Under the pieces are notes generated by a model. It had not been told where the DNA came from and did no database searches. It was given only the letters and a program-made list of their open reading frames with translations. The translations under genes were made by a program, and so were the position numbers. Positions 30,490 through 63,920 of a stretch of DNA of 64,000 nucleotides are shown here, in pieces. Positions within the stretch are counted from its first letter, which is position 1, and each line of letters starts with the position of its first letter. Where the stretch lies: assembly GCA_903902855.1 (NCBI GenBank), contig CAIUWK010000074.1, positions 1-64,000 of the forward strand, read 5' to 3'. This DNA comes from an uncultured Geobacter sp. (lineage in GTDB: Bacteria > Desulfobacterota > Desulfuromonadia > Geobacterales > CAIOGM01).

Positions 30490-31668
30490 TTAAGCGAAAT
30501 ATAGCACCTCTCCCCCGTACCCTGCCAGCAAAACCTTCAACTCCAGGTGAGGGGTCACCGATTGCGCAAAGAGACGCGCCCGTTGGCAGACGAGGGTGAT
30601 GAGGTCCGGATCGTTGGCCGACGACTCCAGGACCCCCCGGGCGGTGACGGCATCGACTACGTGAGGTGCCAGGTGTGAGGTGTGAGGCGTCATCGATAGC
30701 CAGTTCCGGAGCTGCTGCAGGTCAAGCTCGGAGGAGGTTACATGGGTCTGCTCATGGCCGCAGGCGATCTTGAGGAGCTTGGCGAACTGCCCCGCAAGGA
30801 TGACCCGCTCCACCCCCTTTCGGCTGCAGGAGCGAAGAGCATACCCCACGTGGTCCCCCATCATGACAAAGGCCTCTTCGAGCAGCGGTTCTCCCGGTCC
30901 CCGGTCCCCGGTCCCCGGTCCCAGTTTCCCCTGCGCCACCAGTTCCGATGTCCTGCCGGTGGAAAGTACCACCACCTCGCTCCCGCAGGCCAACGCCACA
31001 TCCAGGGCAGCGTCGATGGTATCGGTCCAGGCCTGGGCGGAGATGGGACGGACGATGCCGGTGGTCCCCAGGATGGAGAGCCCCCCCATGATCCCCAGCC
31101 GGGCATTGAGAGTCTTCAGGGCCAGGAGTTCGCCGTTGGGAATGCTTAAAAGGCAGTGAATGGGGACCGGGGACCGGGGACCGGGAAAAACCGACCGGAT
31201 GGCAGCGGTGATCATCCAACGGGGGACGGGGTTGATGGCCCAGGCACCGGGGGGGATTGCCAGCCCCGGCTTGGTGACCCGGCCGATACCGATGCCGCCG
31301 GAGATTACGATGGGAAGTTTTCCCTCTCCCTGCAATATCGTTCCTCCCCCTTCAAGGGGGAGGTCAGGAGGGGGATGGGGTTGCGAGAGTTCCGGCAAGG
31401 GAGAAAGGGGAGTCAGGAAGGAGACCGTTGCATGGATCTCGGCTCCATTGGTGATATCCGGATCGTCGCCGGCATCCTTGATGACGAAACAGGATGCTTC
31501 GTTTTCCGAAAACCGCTGACCGTGAAGGGTGAAGTGGGCCGTTTCCCCTCGGGGAAGGGTGATCTCAACCTCCCCGACGATCTGCTGCTGCCGGAGCATG
31601 AGGGCCGCTCCCCTGGCCGCGGCGGTTGCGCAGGCCCCGGTGGTATAGCCGGAGCGGAGAGATTTCAT
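30490..31668 (-). CDS. cbiD: cobalt-precorrin-5B C1-methyltransferase
   Basis: This 392-residue protein starts SLRSGYTTGACATAAARGA and continues with the GGIGIGRVTKPGLAIPPG, INPVPR-MI and GTTGIVRP motifs of CbiD, which methylates C1 in the anaerobic pathway. Four in-frame inserts of simple or palindromic repeat are embedded: PPPDLPLEGGG (near residues 99-110), FPGPRSPVP (near 163), GPGTGDRGPGEP (near 250) and TPHTSHLAPH (near 330). The conserved motifs are intact, so the protein is probably functional. Its ATG overlaps the upstream split-barrel gene (ATGA). Confidence 0.94.
   Translation of the reverse strand: MKSLRSGYTTGACATAAARGAALMLRQQQIVGEVEITLPRGETAHFTLHGQRFSENEASCFVIKDAGDDPDITNGAEIHATVSFLTPLSPLPELSQPHPPPDLPLEGGGTILQGEGKLPIVISGGIGIGRVTKPGLAIPPGAWAINPVPRWMITAAIRSVFPGPRSPVPIHCLLSIPNGELLALKTLNARLGIMGGLSILGTTGIVRPISAQAWTDTIDAALDVALACGSEVVVLSTGRTSELVAQGKLGPGTGDRGPGEPLLEEAFVMMGDHVGYALRSCSRKGVERVILAGQFAKLLKIACGHEQTHVTSSELDLQQLRNWLSMTPHTSHLAPHVVDAVTARGVLESSANDPDLITLVCQRARLFAQSVTPHLELKVLLAGYGGEVLYFA
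30661..30688. repeat. heptamer repeat (AGGTGTG) inside cbiD
   Basis: Tandem AGGTGTG-AGGTGTG-AGG with a diverged leading unit, all within the reading frame of cbiD. It encodes a Thr/His/Ser/Pro-rich stretch. Confidence 0.65.
30894..30921. repeat. heptamer repeat (CCGGTCC x4) inside cbiD
   Basis: Four perfect copies of CCGGTCC in tandem. The complementary array lies 240 bp away at 31164-31184. The repeat codes for a Gly/Pro/Asp-rich segment of CbiD. Confidence 0.85.
31164..31184. repeat. heptamer repeat (GGACCGG x3) inside cbiD
   Basis: Three perfect copies of GGACCGG, the exact reverse complement of the unit at 30894-30921. Three heptamers make 21 nt, so this insertion leaves the frame unchanged. 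Confidence 0.85.
31341..31380. repeat. palindromic GC-rich element inside cbiD
   Basis: A core CCTCCCCCTTCAAGGGGGAGG palindrome is followed by a GGAGGGGGATGGGG tail. The same element occurs six more times at 61565-63688 around the type I RM genes. Here it is translated in frame as PPPDLPLEGGG. Confidence 0.85.
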
Positions 31669-58167: not shown

Positions 58168-61100
58168 ATGAGCAAGATTATGCAATCCATCAATTTTGAA
58201 ATACTTCGCCAAAGCAACCCGATCCTGGCCGATCTGGGAGGCTTTGCCGAGCGGTATGCATGGCCGGACCCCTCCAGCGCTCTGGTGAAGCTCCGCGCAT
58301 ATATCGAAACCATGGTGGGTACTCTCTATTCCGCCTATGGGGTGCCCCGCCTCTATCAACCAAGTTTGAATGATCTTATAAATAACCAGTCATTTCGTGA
58401 TGTTGTTCCTGTCGTCATCCTGGACAAGTTCCACGCTATTCGCTACCACGGTAATAAGGCGGCCCACGGCGAACCGCAGTCACCGGAGAAGGCCCGCTTT
58501 TTGCTCCGAGAGGCATTCGATCTTGGCTGCTGGTTCTTCATAACCCAGTGTGGCGGCAACAAATCAGATTGCCCGGGTTTTCAGGAAATAGCAGCGCCGG
58601 TAACCAATAATCAGGAGTGGGACGCCGTTAAGGAAAAGAAATCCGTTCTGGAAAAACTGGCTGCCCAGGAAGTCCGGATGCAGGAGCTCCTCCAGGAACT
58701 TGAGGCCAAGCAGGGAGCCGTTCAGGTAGCTCAAAAACAGGCGGCCGAGCTCAAGAGCATTGCCGACGCGGGGATGCAGGCTGCCGACGCCCTTGCCTTT
58801 GATGAAGAGACCACCCGGTTGCGCCTGATCGACAGCATGCTGGCCGAGGCCGGTTGGAATGTCGGATCGAATGGAACAAATACCGAGTGTGTTGCCCAGG
58901 AGGAAGAGGTTAAGTATCAGCCGACAACCACCGGAATCGGCTATGCGGATTACGTGTTGAGAGACGACAACGGTCTGCCGTTGGCGGTGGTGGAAGCGAA
59001 GAAGAGCGCCAAGGATGCCACCATCGGTCGCAAGCAGGCTCAACTCTATGCGGATGGGTTGGAGAGAATGCACGGCCAACGGCCGGTCATCTTTTACACC
59101 AATGGCTTTGATGTCTGGATGTGGGATGACAAGGGTGGCTGTCCGCCGCGCAAACTCTATGGATTCTACTCCAAGGACAGTCTCCAGTACCTGGTCAACT
59201 ACCAGCGCGAATCCCGCAAACCGCTGGACAGTGTGATTCCCAACGCCGACATTGCCGGTCGCCTCTATCAACTGGAAGCGATCAAGCGCGTGGGAGAGCG
59301 ATTCACTGCCGGTTATCGCAAGACGCTCATTGTCCAGGCCACTGGTACCGGGAAGACCCGTGTTTCCGTCTCACTGGTTGATCAGCTGCTGCGAGCCGGG
59401 TGGGTCAAGCGGGTGTTGTTTCTCTGTGATCGTAAGGAGTTACGCAAACAGGCAAAGAACGTCTTCAACGAATTCATCAACGAACCGATGACCATCGTCC
59501 GATCCGGCACAGCAAAGGACCGTACCAAGCGGATCTACCTTGCTACCTATCCGGCCATGATGAAGATCTTTCAGACCTTCGATGTCGGCTTCTTCGATTT
59601 GATCATTGCCGACGAATCGCATCGCAGTATCTACAACCGTTACCACGACCTGTTCCAGTATTTCGATTCATATCAGGTGGGGCTCACGGCCACGCCGGTG
59701 GATTTTATCAGCCGTAATACCTTCCGCCTGTTCAACTGCGAGGAGCAGGACCCCACAGCCTACTATCCGCTGGAGCGGGCTGTTGAGGAGGGGTATCTGG
59801 TCCCCTATGAGGTTTACACCCATACTACCAATTTCATGCGCATGGGTATCAAGTACAGCCAGTTGACCGATGAACAGCGACAACAGCTGGAAGATGACGG
59901 CGAAGATCCGGAATCCTTCGATTACGGCGCGTCGGAGGTGGACAAGCAGATCTTCAACAAGGAGACCAATCGGGCCATCCTGCGCAACCTGATGGAGCAC
60001 GGCATCCGGGATGCTTCCGGTCAGCAGGTGGGCAAAACCATCGTCTTTGCCCGGAGCCACCAGCACGCTCTTCTCCTTGCGCAACTGTTTGATGAGATGT
60101 ACCCCCAGTATGGCGGCAATTTTTGCCAGGTGATCGACAACTACGATCCCCGGGCCGAACAGCTCATCGACGACTTCAAGGGGGTTGGCAGCAACAAGGA
60201 GCTGACCATCGCCATCTCGGTGGACATGCTGGACACCGGCATTGATGTCCCCGAGATCGTCAACCTGGTATTTGCCAAACCGATCAAGTCCAAGGTCAAA
60301 TTCTGGCAGATGATCGGTCGCGGCACCCGGCTCTGCTTGCACCTGTTCGGTCCCGGCCGGCACAAGAGCGTCTTCAGGATCTTCGATCACTGGGGGAACT
60401 TCGAATTTTTCGAACAGAACCGTCCAGAGGCGGAAGCTGTGCAGGGAAAATCGCTCATGCAGCGGGTTTTCGAGGCGAGGATTGAGTTGGCCGAAACAGC
60501 TCTGGCCAAGGCAGAGCTGGCCATCTTTGACCAAGCTGTCCCCCTGATCGGTAAAGACCTGGCATCTCTGCCGGAGCAGACCATAGCTGTTCGTGAGAAG
60601 TGGCAGGAGAAGCGGAGCGTTTCCCGACCTGAGATTCTCAACCAGTTTTCACCGGCAACGGTGCGGGTTCTCAAACAGGAGATGGCACCTCTCATGCAGT
60701 GGGTGCCGATTCGCGATCATGGAGATGCCTACGAGTTCGACCTGCTGGTTGCCACCATGCAGACCGAATTGCTGAAGGGAAGCGGCCGCTTTGATGATCT
60801 GAAGGGGGACCTGCTCAACCGGGTGGCAGCGCTGCTCATGCATCTCAATCCGGTGCGGGTCAAAGCTGAAACGATAAAGAGAGTCCAGCAGCCCGAATTC
60901 TGGGGAGGTGTCACTGTTTCGGGGTTGGAAGAAGTCCGCCAGGAACTCCGTTCAATCATGCACCATCGGCAGAAGGGGGGTGTTGACCCTGCCCGGCCCA
61001 GGATCGTGGATGTGAGCGATGGCGATATTCAGTATACCCAGCGCAAGGCCAATCTAAAGGAAGTGGATATGGCCGCCTACAAGCATCGGGTGGAAGAGGC

Positions 61101-61680
61101 GTTGAAGGAGCTGTTTGTCAGCAGCCCGACTCTGCAGAAGATACGGGCCGGCGAGCCGGTAACAGCAGGAGACCTGAATGCCCTTACGTCACTGGTCCTC
61201 ACCAACCATCCGGGGGTGAATCTGGAGCTGCTCAAGGAATTCTATATCGAGACTGCGGCCCCGCTGGACTTTATTATTCGCTCGCTCATCGGTATGGACC
61301 CGGAAGCGGTCAAGAAGCATTTTGCCCGGTTTGTCCAGCGCTACCCGATGATAACGGCCAACCAGACCCTGTTTTTGAGTCTATTACAGAACCATATCGC
61401 CAAATACGGCACCATCGAACTGGCAAAGCTCTACGAAGCCCCTTTTACCAGTATCAACAGTGACGGATTGGATGGAGTCTTCAGCGATGAACAGCAGATA
61501 GATGATCTTCTGACCATCATCCAGGACTTTCAGCTGACCCATTCACCACGTGACCTCCGAGGAACCCATCCCCCACCTAACCTCCCCCTTGAAGGGGGAG
61601 GAACTAACCCACCACCAAATAGCTCCAACAAAACAGCTCCCTCCCCTTCAAGGGGAGGGCTGGGGAGGGGATGGGTTTAA
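58168..61680 (+). CDS. hsdR: type I restriction enzyme R subunit
   Basis: This 1170-residue protein has an N-terminal DUF4145-like helical part (about 1-125), a coiled coil (about 150-200), an endonuclease domain with D-x(n)-E-x-K (GYADYVL..., AVVEAKKS near 258-280), and an SF2 helicase with motif I QATGTGKTR (near 390), II ADESHR (near 479), III LTATP and VI MIGRGTRL. An EcoEI-type C-terminal domain completes it. It would translocate DNA and cut after binding HsdM/HsdS. The last ~45 residues derive from a repeat pair. GGGAGGC precedes the ATG. Confidence 0.95.
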   Translation: MSKIMQSINFEILRQSNPILADLGGFAERYAWPDPSSALVKLRAYIETMVGTLYSAYGVPRLYQPSLNDLINNQSFRDVVPVVILDKFHAIRYHGNKAAHGEPQSPEKARFLLREAFDLGCWFFITQCGGNKSDCPGFQEIAAPVTNNQEWDAVKEKKSVLEKLAAQEVRMQELLQELEAKQGAVQVAQKQAAELKSIADAGMQAADALAFDEETTRLRLIDSMLAEAGWNVGSNGTNTECVAQEEEVKYQPTTTGIGYADYVLRDDNGLPLAVVEAKKSAKDATIGRKQAQLYADGLERMHGQRPVIFYTNGFDVWMWDDKGGCPPRKLYGFYSKDSLQYLVNYQRESRKPLDSVIPNADIAGRLYQLEAIKRVGERFTAGYRKTLIVQATGTGKTRVSVSLVDQLLRAGWVKRVLFLCDRKELRKQAKNVFNEFINEPMTIVRSGTAKDRTKRIYLATYPAMMKIFQTFDVGFFDLIIADESHRSIYNRYHDLFQYFDSYQVGLTATPVDFISRNTFRLFNCEEQDPTAYYPLERAVEEGYLVPYEVYTHTTNFMRMGIKYSQLTDEQRQQLEDDGEDPESFDYGASEVDKQIFNKETNRAILRNLMEHGIRDASGQQVGKTIVFARSHQHALLLAQLFDEMYPQYGGNFCQVIDNYDPRAEQLIDDFKGVGSNKELTIAISVDMLDTGIDVPEIVNLVFAKPIKSKVKFWQMIGRGTRLCLHLFGPGRHKSVFRIFDHWGNFEFFEQNRPEAEAVQGKSLMQRVFEARIELAETALAKAELAIFDQAVPLIGKDLASLPEQTIAVREKWQEKRSVSRPEILNQFSPATVRVLKQEMAPLMQWVPIRDHGDAYEFDLLVATMQTELLKGSGRFDDLKGDLLNRVAALLMHLNPVRVKAETIKRVQQPEFWGGVTVSGLEEVRQELRSIMHHRQKGGVDPARPRIVDVSDGDIQYTQRKANLKEVDMAAYKHRVEEALKELFVSSPTLQKIRAGEPVTAGDLNALTSLVLTNHPGVNLELLKEFYIETAAPLDFIIRSLIGMDPEAVKKHFARFVQRYPMITANQTLFLSLLQNHIAKYGTIELAKLYEAPFTSINSDGLDGVFSDEQQIDDLLTIIQDFQLTHSPRDLRGTHPPPNLPLEGGGTNPPPNSSNKTAPSPSRGGLGRGWV
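61565..61675. repeat. inverted pair of palindromic elements (pair 1)
   Basis: The unit at 61565-61602 (CCCATCCCCC...CTTGAAGGGGG) faces the reversed unit at 61637-61675 (CTCCCCTTCAAGGGG...GGGATGGG). Each unit is itself a palindrome around CTTGAAG or CTTCAAG. The pair lies in the 3' end of hsdR and is translated. Confidence 0.9.
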
Positions 61681-61681
61681 C

Positions 61682-62035
61682 ATGAAAGGCCAAACCAACC
61701 GGAACATCCTTGACAATCATTTGCAACGCAACCTGCGCAATACAATGACCGATGCCGAAAGAGCCCTCTGGAAAGCTTTACGAGGTCAGCAGATGGCCGG
61801 ATACAAATTCCGCAGACAGCATCCATTTGAGAACTACATTCTTGATTTTGTATGTCTGGATAAAATGCTGGTTGTTGAAGTTGATGGAAGTCAGCATGTT
61901 GAACACGCTGATTTTGACGAGGAGAGGAGTCGGCAGTTGGCAAAAGCGGGGTTCCGGGTTGTCAGGTTTTGGAATAATGAAGTTTTGACTCAGATTGATG
62001 CCGTCAAGGAACGAATTTGGGGGGAATTGCAGTGA
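61682..62035 (+). CDS. DUF559 (Vsr-like) endonuclease-domain protein
   Basis: This 117-residue protein has the DUF559 pattern: [19 protein letters not shown], then [33 protein letters not shown] and [13 protein letters not shown]. The central D-x(n)-E-V-D is the PD-(D/E)XK/Vsr-like catalytic core. The start at 61682 is just 1 nt after the hsdR stop. Longer readings run into the repeat. It lies between hsdR and hsdM in the type I locus and is bracketed by inverted repeat pairs on both sides. Its role is not established. It could be a nicking or repair nuclease or the enzyme linked to spread of the repeats. Confidence 0.88.
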
Positions 62036-62078
62036 CTCTCCTGGATACTTATTACTACTAATCTGTGGCCATCTACGT

Positions 62079-62195
62079 TCCTCCCCTTTCAAGGGGGAGG
62101 ACAGGAGGGGGATGGGGGAGTGTCTTCGAACAAAACCTGCCCCAGCCCACCATATAACCCATCCCCACCCTAGCCCTCCCCTTGAAGGGGAGGGA
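62079..62195. repeat. inverted pair of palindromic elements (pair 2)
   Basis: The unit at 62079-62117 (CTCCCCTTTCAAGGGGGAGG, GGGATGGGGG tail) and the unit at 62158-62195 (CCCATCCCCACC, CTCCCCTTGAAGGGGAGGG) are in opposite orientation to pair 1. They fill the gap between the DUF559 gene and hsdM. Confidence 0.9.
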
Positions 62196-62219
62196 ATGCT
62201 GAGAGGAGTTTGCCCGAGT

Positions 62220-63920
62220 ATGATAACCGGACCGCTTAAAAGCAGCATTGACAAATTGTGGGAAGAATTCTGGACCGGCGGGGTGACCAACCCGCTGACG
62301 GTGATCGAACAGATCTCGTTCCTCATGTTCAGTCGCCTGATGGACATCAACGAGAGCCGCAACGAGAAAAAGGCCCAACGGACCGGCAAGCCCATGAGCC
62401 GCCGGATGTTCAGCGATAGTGAGCAGGATCTGCGCTGGCAGAAGTACAAGCATCTCGGGGCCGATGACATGCTTCCCCATGTACGGGACAAGGTGTTCCC
62501 TCACTTCAAAAGTGTGGCAGTGGACGGGGCTAAGTTCGGCGAGTACATGAAAGATGCCCAGCTCATGATCCAGAAGCCGACCTTACTGGTTTCAGCTATC
62601 AACATGATTGATGCCCTGCCACTCACCGAAGGGGACACCAAGGGAGATCTGTACGAATATTTGCTCAGCAAGCTGACCACCGCCGGCATTAACGGTCAGT
62701 TCCGCACTCCTCGGCACATTATCCGTCTCATGGTGGAATTGCTTAATCCCTCTCTTGAGCATAATGAGGTAATCGGCGACCCCGCCTGCGGTACCGCCGG
62801 CTTCCTGGTGGAAACGATGCAGTTCTTGCAGCGCAAGTACACCTCGCCCGAAGGGATCATCGATCATGAGGGGGAGAGAATCTACTCTGGCGATCTCTTG
62901 GAACCGCACCTGGAGCATATCCAGAGCAACCTGATTCACGGCTTCGATTTCGATGTCACCATGCTTCGTATTGCTGCCATGAACTTGCTGCTTCATGGTA
63001 TCGATGCCCCGGATATTCATTATCAGGACACTCTGAGCAGCAACTTTCCGGACAAGTTCCCCAGACATGCCCAGAACTTCTTTGATGTCATTCTGGCCAA
63101 TCCGCCGTTCAAAGGAAGTCTCGATTTCGAGGATGTTCATTCGTCACTGCTGGCCCAGGTGAAGACCAAGAAAACAGAATTGCTGTTTGTGGCGCTCATC
63201 TTGCGGATGCTCAAGAACGGTGGTCGTTCTGCCACCATCGTTCCGGACGGTGTGTTGTTCGGCTCCTCCAAGGCCCATGTGGCTTTGCGCGAGATGCTGG
63301 TGGAAAGGAATCAGCTGGAGGCGGTCATCTCGTTGCCGTCTGGGGTTTTTCGCCCCTATGCCGGAGTTTCCACCGGCATCCTGATCTTCACCAAGGGGGG
63401 CAAGACTGAAGACGTCTTCTTCTATGACATGCAGGATGACGGCTTCTCGTTGGATGACAAGCGGACGCAGTTGTATGACAGCAACTTTGCCGGTGATCTT
63501 CCTGGGTGTCTGGCCAGTTGGAATGAGTGGCAGAAGAGTAAACTCGACTCCACCCCGACCCTGAAACCCATCCCCACCCCAGCCCTCCCCTTGAAGGGGA
63601 GGGAGCTTGTAAGTCTCAGCACCATCAATGGGGACATTACCTCAGCAAGTTCCTCCCCTTTCAAGGGGGAGGTTAGGAGGGGGATGGGTTCTACCGAGGT
63701 TAGCAGCGGGATGGGTTTTACCGACCGCACTGCCAAAGCCTTCTCCGTCCCGGCCCAGGAAATACGGGACAAGAACTACGATCTTTCCCTAAACCGCTTC
63801 AAGGAGACGGTATATGAAGACGTTAAGCATGTCCCGCCCAAGGAGATTCTGCAGATGTTGAAGGGGCTGGAGAGCGAGATCATGCAGGATTTGGTTGAGC
63901 TGGAGGGGATGCTCGGATGA
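62220..63920 (+). CDS. hsdM: type I DNA methyltransferase M subunit
   Basis: This 566-residue N6-adenine methyltransferase has an HsdM_N helical domain (about 1-130: [18 protein letters not shown]), SAM motif [15 protein letters not shown] (near 182) and the catalytic motif IV NPPF ([14 protein letters not shown] near 294). The C-terminus ends [27 protein letters not shown]. Residues ~450-500 are an in-frame repeat insertion. The ATG at 62220 has AGGAG 11 nt upstream, and family alignment supports this start. It overlaps hsdS by four bases. Confidence 0.95.
63567..63688. repeat. inverted pair of palindromic elements inside hsdM (pair 3)
   Basis: The units at 63567-63604 and 63650-63688 have the same arrangement as pair 1. 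A further tail fragment, GCGGGATGGGTTTTACCG, lies at 63706-63723. All of it is in frame and translated as [14 protein letters not shown] and [13 protein letters not shown]. Confidence 0.9.

Follow-up and report, generated by a model that had tools for sequence, protein, structure and literature searches.

A DUF559 nuclease gene bracketed by inverted boxC/PIT/TM-type triplex repeats in an uncultured Geobacter sp. and its possible analogy to REP/RAYT systems

The stretch of DNA analyzed here, referred to as the window, consists of 64,000 nucleotides of contig CAIUWK010000074.1 (assembly GCA_903902855.1) from an uncultured Geobacter sp. A small gene of the DUF559 family (PF04480, E = 1.7e-38) is located on the plus strand at 61682–62035 and encodes a putative nuclease of 117 amino acids. 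Its neighbors on the same strand are hsdR (58168–61680) on the left and hsdM (62220–63920), which carries an inserted repeat pair of its own, on the right, both belonging to a type I restriction system. The placement of a DUF559 nuclease gene between hsdR and hsdM in the original prediction was thus confirmed. The ATG of the gene begins 5 nt past the end of the left repeat. A PADLOC search returned no match, and hence no defence-system assignment can be made. The genome of the window contains a second, different DUF559 gene (L009, contig C23, 1317–2155), which is bracketed by another repeat type, ~140 bp long and containing two palindromes, present there in three copies.

It is evident that the same GC-rich palindromic unit occurs in inverted pairs on both sides of the gene (61563–61605 with 61635–61677, and 62078–62116 with 62158–62196), as had been predicted. 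The palindromic core described earlier is real, but the unit is longer than the core and consists of a hairpin, a 3-nt spacer and a G-rich tail of ~13 nt (GGGGATGGG), the spacers in the window being TTA, CTG, CTA or ACA. The left pair (61563–61677) has its tails outside and codes for the C-terminal end of the hsdR reading frame. It comprises unit L1 (61564–61603, minus strand; tail' CCCATCCCCCACC, spacer TAA, hairpin CCTCCCCCTTGAAGGGGGAGG) and unit L2 (61637–61677, plus strand; hairpin CCCTCCCCTTCAAGGGGAGGG, spacer CTG, tail GGGAGGGGATGGG). The right pair (62078–62196, or 62046–62195 when part of the outer arm ATTACTACTAATCTGTGGC is included) comprises unit R1 (62080–62116, plus strand), in which the hairpin CCTCCCCTTTCAAGGGGGAGG with a T.G pair is followed by the spacer ACA and the tail GGAGGGGGATGGG, and unit R2 (62156–62195, minus strand; tail' ACCCATCCCCACCC, spacer TAG, then the hairpin). 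The tails of this pair point inside. The gene is indeed bracketed by pairs, and the two differ in their arrangement; the layout of the right pair is that of the multi-copy unit in genomes of the same genus. L2 and R2 constitute the left and right terminal repeats of the DUF559 cassette, respectively, and its best terminal inverted repeats, 61638–61677 with 62156–62195, are 40 nt long and 95% complementary.

Further copies are found elsewhere in the window. A pair of 126 bp (63565–63690), with tails outside, lies in frame within hsdM, and a single unit on the plus strand (31340–31379) is 95% like the right half of this pair. Just past the hsdM pair, the repeat tail recurs as a 27-bp tandem copy (63696–63722), which suggests slippage or local rearrangement. 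The 17-nt core with up to two mismatches is enriched and occurs at 3 places in the window against 0.04 expected; only the cores at 61641, 62176 and 63585 fit this pattern, and the units at 61583–61603 and 62080–62100 are variants with one additional base pair, C-G or T.G. In the whole genome, 4 full 19-nt cores were counted, yet BLAST gave 16 segments of the element. A degenerate unit was also noticed within an ABC transporter gene of the same genome (L025, C102:66038), where it apparently sits between the membrane and ATPase parts of the transporter.

The structure of the unit was investigated at 143 loci with a total of 217 elements. In sequence, the tail is a mirror image of the 3′ arm of the hairpin, a mirror repeat being the better description than a direct repeat in 111 informative cases vs 19. 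In 154/184 the spacer has a length of exactly 3 nt, and it is usually of the form pyrimidine-pyrimidine-purine, usually TTA. In the substitutions from arm to tail, G corresponds to G in 1104 of 1117 cases, and A corresponds to A (194) or T (139). This pattern, G to G and A to A or T, is the code of antiparallel purine triplexes. Five units in the window (31343, 61567, 61639, 62160 and 63569, thus including L1, L2 and R2) have 9/9 matches to the code together with the 3-nt spacer. G-quadruplex formation was considered as the main rule and rejected: a G4 motif is present in 136 of the 217 units, compared with 23 with shuffled tails, but this rule leaves out the types containing A/T (GGGGGGATTT tails), which the triplex code covers. 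The G-quadruplex may be a side effect of the repeat sequence. Rfam matches in the region were below threshold, mostly to animal microRNA models, and were dismissed as chance.

The code was derived from the repeat sequences in this analysis, prior to the literature match with the boxC/PIT/TM repeats. By its sequence, the repeat in the window is identified as a member of these known intrastrand triplex repeats and not as a REP. The published TMECO pattern, CCCTCNCCC N3-6 GGGNGAGGG N3 GGGNGAGGG (Holder et al. 2015, PMC4666352), and the window repeat have in common the 3-nt second loop (TTA in type A), the inverted pairs and the high copy number in many genomes. The window type is set apart by GGGGATGGG tails and by stems of other lengths; the rule derived here also extends to A/T-containing repeat types beyond the published pattern. 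Knowledge of the boxC/PIT/TM repeats in E. coli dates back to the 1990s; they are present in hundreds of genomes and mark unstable loci. A repeat oligonucleotide from E. coli folds as a triplex in vitro, as seen by CD and NMR, while a stable triplex was not seen in vivo by Holder et al. (PMC4666352). In published work these repeats are without an assigned enzyme, origin, function or mobility gene, and neither DUF559 nor ycjD appears in the text of that paper (PMC4666352).

Bracketing by repeats was found to be general for DUF559 genes. The loci were taken from 395 genomes of the same phylum, with 68 loci from many phyla and 80 more loci from the phylum. Likeness between the upstream and downstream flanks with a score of at least 22 was observed at 57/96 DUF559 loci compared with 5/349 control windows, and with a score of at least 18 at 73/109 and 50/65 loci compared with 2/204 and 3/353 controls. 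For 46/110 and 35/67 DUF559 genes, the hairpin pattern is found no more than 100 bp upstream, against a background of ~0.3% per 100-bp bin at more than 400 bp from the gene. Where a flank bears a hairpin, the G-rich tail is on the gene side (117 vs 2 upstream, 110 vs 6 downstream). A strict unit was defined by a hairpin of at least 8 bp, a 3-nt spacer, at least 8 of 9 matches to the triplex code and a G-rich tail. With its tail towards the gene, this unit adjoins 122 of 174 DUF559 genes (upstream 83, downstream 97, both sides 58) and 2 of 144 control genes (none upstream, two downstream), with 6/1336 for control strands. DUF559 genes are therefore not usually found without flanking repeats, the outcome named beforehand as contrary to the proposal. 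The gonococcal NGO0050 gene and DUF559 genes on cyanobacterial plasmids are likewise flanked by such repeats.

The copy number of the repeat also follows the presence of DUF559. Abundance was measured with the pattern CCCTCNCC-N2-12-GGNGAGGG as the excess over a reversed-pattern control; the pattern takes in only some repeat types. Among the 395 genomes, the 92 in which DUF559 was matched strongly had a median of 11 copies and the 248 lacking any match a median of 1 (p = 6e-24 for the excess), the correlation that had been anticipated. Within families, genomes with DUF559 had the greater abundance in 26 of 31 informative cases (26 vs 5). In a joint model, t was 11.2 for DUF559 and 2.7 for Y1_Tnp, and family-stratified permutation reached the observed effect in 0/5000 and 34/5000 cases, respectively; the presence of Y1/RAYT-type transposases accounts for far less of the repeat abundance than DUF559. 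A similar picture was obtained in 123 Gammaproteobacteria, the class of L061, with a median excess of 14 with DUF559 and 0 without (p = 3e-8), and in 22 DUF559-bearing genomes from several phyla, with a median of 32.5 copies against 1 for the reversed pattern. Exceptions occur in both directions: an excess of 8 copies or more was counted in 29 of the 248 genomes without DUF559, and an excess below 3 in 25 of the 92 genomes with it. Independence of repeat abundance from DUF559, which would have spoken against the proposal, was encountered neither in the 395 genomes nor in the Gammaproteobacteria nor in E. coli.

The E. coli member of the family is ycjD, which lies between sapF and fabI (L271, L290 and L292), including in K-12 MG1655, and is present at a coverage of at least 80% in 3366 of 5426 complete E. 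coli genomes. Between ycjD and fabI there are degenerate repeats as well as a single copy that fits the published TM pattern; in K-12, a copy of the latter kind lies downstream of ycjD. A ycjD-plus-TM probe was applied to 60 genomes spread across the ranking, the ycjD place itself counting as one, and gave a median of 18 places with ycjD and 7 without, a difference that is confounded by phylogroup. Strains without ycjD hold an efflux operon and no bare site at the sapF–fabI locus; this operon is eef (PMC12817139). In E. coli C, a long near-perfect palindrome, TCACCTCATTCTGACA...TGTCAGAATGAGGTGA, was seen between sapF and ycjD, upstream of ycjD (L290, 1430–1480). It is not of the triplex type, and a related palindrome follows sapF in O157 strains without ycjD (L287).

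In genomes with several paralogs, the genome of the window (L009) included, divergent DUF559 paralogs are bracketed by different hairpin types, and across phyla the repeat types sort by DUF559 protein group. The correlation between protein distance and repeat distance gave a Mantel rho of 0.53, the maximum of 999 permutations being 0.14. Repeats of distant DUF559 pairs differ equally whether the pair is from one genome or from two. The correlation does not distinguish co-specificity from joint inheritance or joint cassette transfer. The existence of paralog-specific repeat types and the agreement of type with clade strengthen the REPIN/RAYT-like reading.

The structure predicted for the DUF559 protein of the window (pLDDT 84.5) has its best PDB matches in 3HRL and in I-Bth0305I (3R3P), while Vsr (1CW0) is lower. 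The former, NGO0050 of N. gonorrhoeae, is itself a DUF559 protein, 44% identical in the structural alignment and encoded between repeat copies, although its PDB label is merely putative endonuclease-like protein. I-Bth0305I and Vsr share a related fold and conserved acidic and histidine active-site residues with the window protein; The annotation of I-Bth0305I, by contrast, is that of a homing endonuclease from a mobile intron, and Vsr is an enzyme that nicks DNA at T:G mismatches. Neither I-Bth0305I nor Vsr is known to be bracketed by dispersed repeats. The Vsr profile TIGR00632 was not reached by the window protein (18.9 bits, cut-off 97.85), and profile-search matches to unrelated toxin B chains at E > 0.08 were set aside as chance. 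In 43 sequences, E66, D68 and D79 are invariant and H72 is nearly so, and the candidate active-site residues are conserved in ~99% of the loci. The conserved residues and the matching folds together indicate that the window DUF559 is probably an active nuclease; its substrate, from the association with the repeats, would be the repeat unit. Another DUF559 protein, VsrA of Caulobacter, has instead been linked to cytosine-methylation-dependent DNA damage (PMC12907096).

Dispersal of the repeats was examined in related genomes. Genomes of the same genus have ~26–32 segments each, many as inverted pairs of constant layout, mostly with tails inside and some with tails outside, and in a Chloroflexi genome the inverted pairs are ~93 bp apart. 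With its gene taken out, the cassette would have the same layout as a tails-inside pair. In one genome of the genus (G396), ~30 segments are present and no DUF559 of the cognate type was recognized; in another (G395), the cognate gene is broken and the repeats are abundant. Abundant repeats with the cognate DUF559 broken or not found in the genus count against current activity. For an empty-site search, joined-flank queries were prepared from eight same-genus copies, with L228 partial, L232 left out and L225 lacking the right flank because of the contig end. At the sites compared, neither a clean empty site nor a target duplication was found, the sites holding older or different repeats or other insertions. 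One linker site carries a different repeat type in the genome of the window than in the same-genus copies. The insertion in hsdM is common to the window and to L056 of another genome of the genus (G397), where the repeat array is expanded and rearranged. A further observation concerns apparent restriction-modification genes, in which the same site holds repeat types differing by species (L231/L266/L220/L268; L246/L267), as if it were a preferred insertion site.

In the original prediction, the cassette was taken for a counterpart of REPIN/RAYT built around a different enzyme, and as an analogy this view is supported. In REP/REPIN systems with RAYT (PMC2817692, PMC3116915), as here, a genome has few, divergent enzyme genes bracketed by inverted palindromic repeats, the repeat types are enzyme-specific and short inverted pairs are dispersed without the gene. 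DUF559 has its own repeat type in inverted orientation, and abundance tracks the enzyme, with exceptions notably in the genus of the window. The two systems differ in that RAYT is an HUH/Y1 transposase whereas DUF559 is a PD-(D/E)XK-like EDxHD nuclease, and in that REPs carry a GTAG tag whereas the DUF559 repeats are without GTAG at the hairpin foot and have a mirror-repeat tail. The gene between the window repeats belongs to PF04480 and not to the HUH/Y1 transposases (PF01797), the genome having one Y1_Tnp match. With this different enzyme fold and no GTAG tag, the DUF559-repeat system appears to resemble REP/RAYT in its working and is not to be counted as a member. The CGTC-tagged REPs (PMC3733652) are likewise palindromes scattered through genomes as inverted pairs, and are described as elements that 'apparently lack a dedicated transposase'; they differ in tag and stem, and in an unsystematic look none was identified as a DUF559 flank.

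Taken together, these results lead us to propose, with moderate confidence, that the boxC/PIT/TM triplex repeats have a dedicated nuclease partner in DUF559, which would act on the unit in a RAYT-like manner. The complete element would be the DUF559 gene between two units with their G-rich tails towards the gene, and the short inverted pairs would be its non-autonomous derivatives, as REPINs are to RAYT. A unit that becomes single-stranded, for example at the replication fork, would fold into the hairpin and its third strand; DUF559, as a small EDxHD/Vsr-like nuclease, would recognize the folded unit and cut at or near the 3-nt spacer or the tail, and the cut ends would be copied or pasted elsewhere, partly by host repair. 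We infer the binding and cutting of the unit, the position of the cut and the resulting movement of the repeats from the association of gene and repeat. Counting against the proposal are the absence of a clean empty site or target duplication at the sites compared, the exceptions in repeat abundance, the genomes G395 and G396, the different role linked to Caulobacter VsrA (PMC12907096) and the finding of Holder et al. that no stable triplex was seen in vivo (PMC4666352). More tentatively, and short of what we would call likely, the cassettes may form a minimal mobile-element superfamily in which an EDxHD nuclease with an intrastrand triplex as the transposon end disperses its own gene and short pairs across many phyla and is the source of boxC/PIT/TM repeats, those of E. 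coli included.

The main rival to this RAYT-like partnership, in our estimate rather unlikely, is a homing-type element, in which DUF559 would cut genomic repeat copies or empty neighbors and the gene would spread by break repair through repeat homology. The repeats would then be targets or homology arms and not cargo, and would be multiplied by another route. Consistent with homing, the closest solved structure of known function is the homing endonuclease I-Bth0305I, the repeats on either side of the gene could direct repair through their homology, repeat copies are retained where the gene is missing, and one cassette with its repeats is apparently a tandem duplication (L277, G395:C73). Homing alone leaves unexplained why copy number rises with DUF559 within families and how short inverted pairs of fixed spacing are multiplied.

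The fold similarity to Vsr, the Caulobacter VsrA study (PMC12907096) and the copy-number correlation would also suit a housekeeping role, in which a Vsr-like repair nuclease processes triplex or mismatch structures arising from the repeats, nuclease and repeats being kept together by selection in repeat-rich genomes. This would explain neither the bracketing of the gene itself in a fixed orientation nor the paralog-specific repeat types, and we consider it improbable. The repeats could instead be recombination hot spots spread by another enzyme, e.g., an IS200/RAYT-type Y1 transposase, between which DUF559 genes happen to land. Such hitchhiking is already disfavoured and seems very improbable: the weak independent effect of Y1_Tnp and the repeated occupation of the same linker sites by repeats would agree with it, but the effect of DUF559 is much stronger, control genes are without bracketing and the repeat type matches the DUF559 clade across phyla.

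While the repeats themselves were already known, the identification of DUF559 as the candidate partner of boxC/PIT/TM and the covariation of the two across repeat types are new here. A literature search, with most subscription papers and all bioRxiv preprints outside its coverage, gave no paper linking DUF559, COG2852, ycjD or Vsr with boxC or triplex repeats. Since K-12 has a member of the family (ycjD, adjacent to fabI) and one structure has been solved (3HRL), the link makes the question directly testable in a laboratory strain. Should DUF559 act on the repeats, it would represent a dispersal enzyme with no relation to known transposases as well as a protein that naturally reads triplex-forming DNA.
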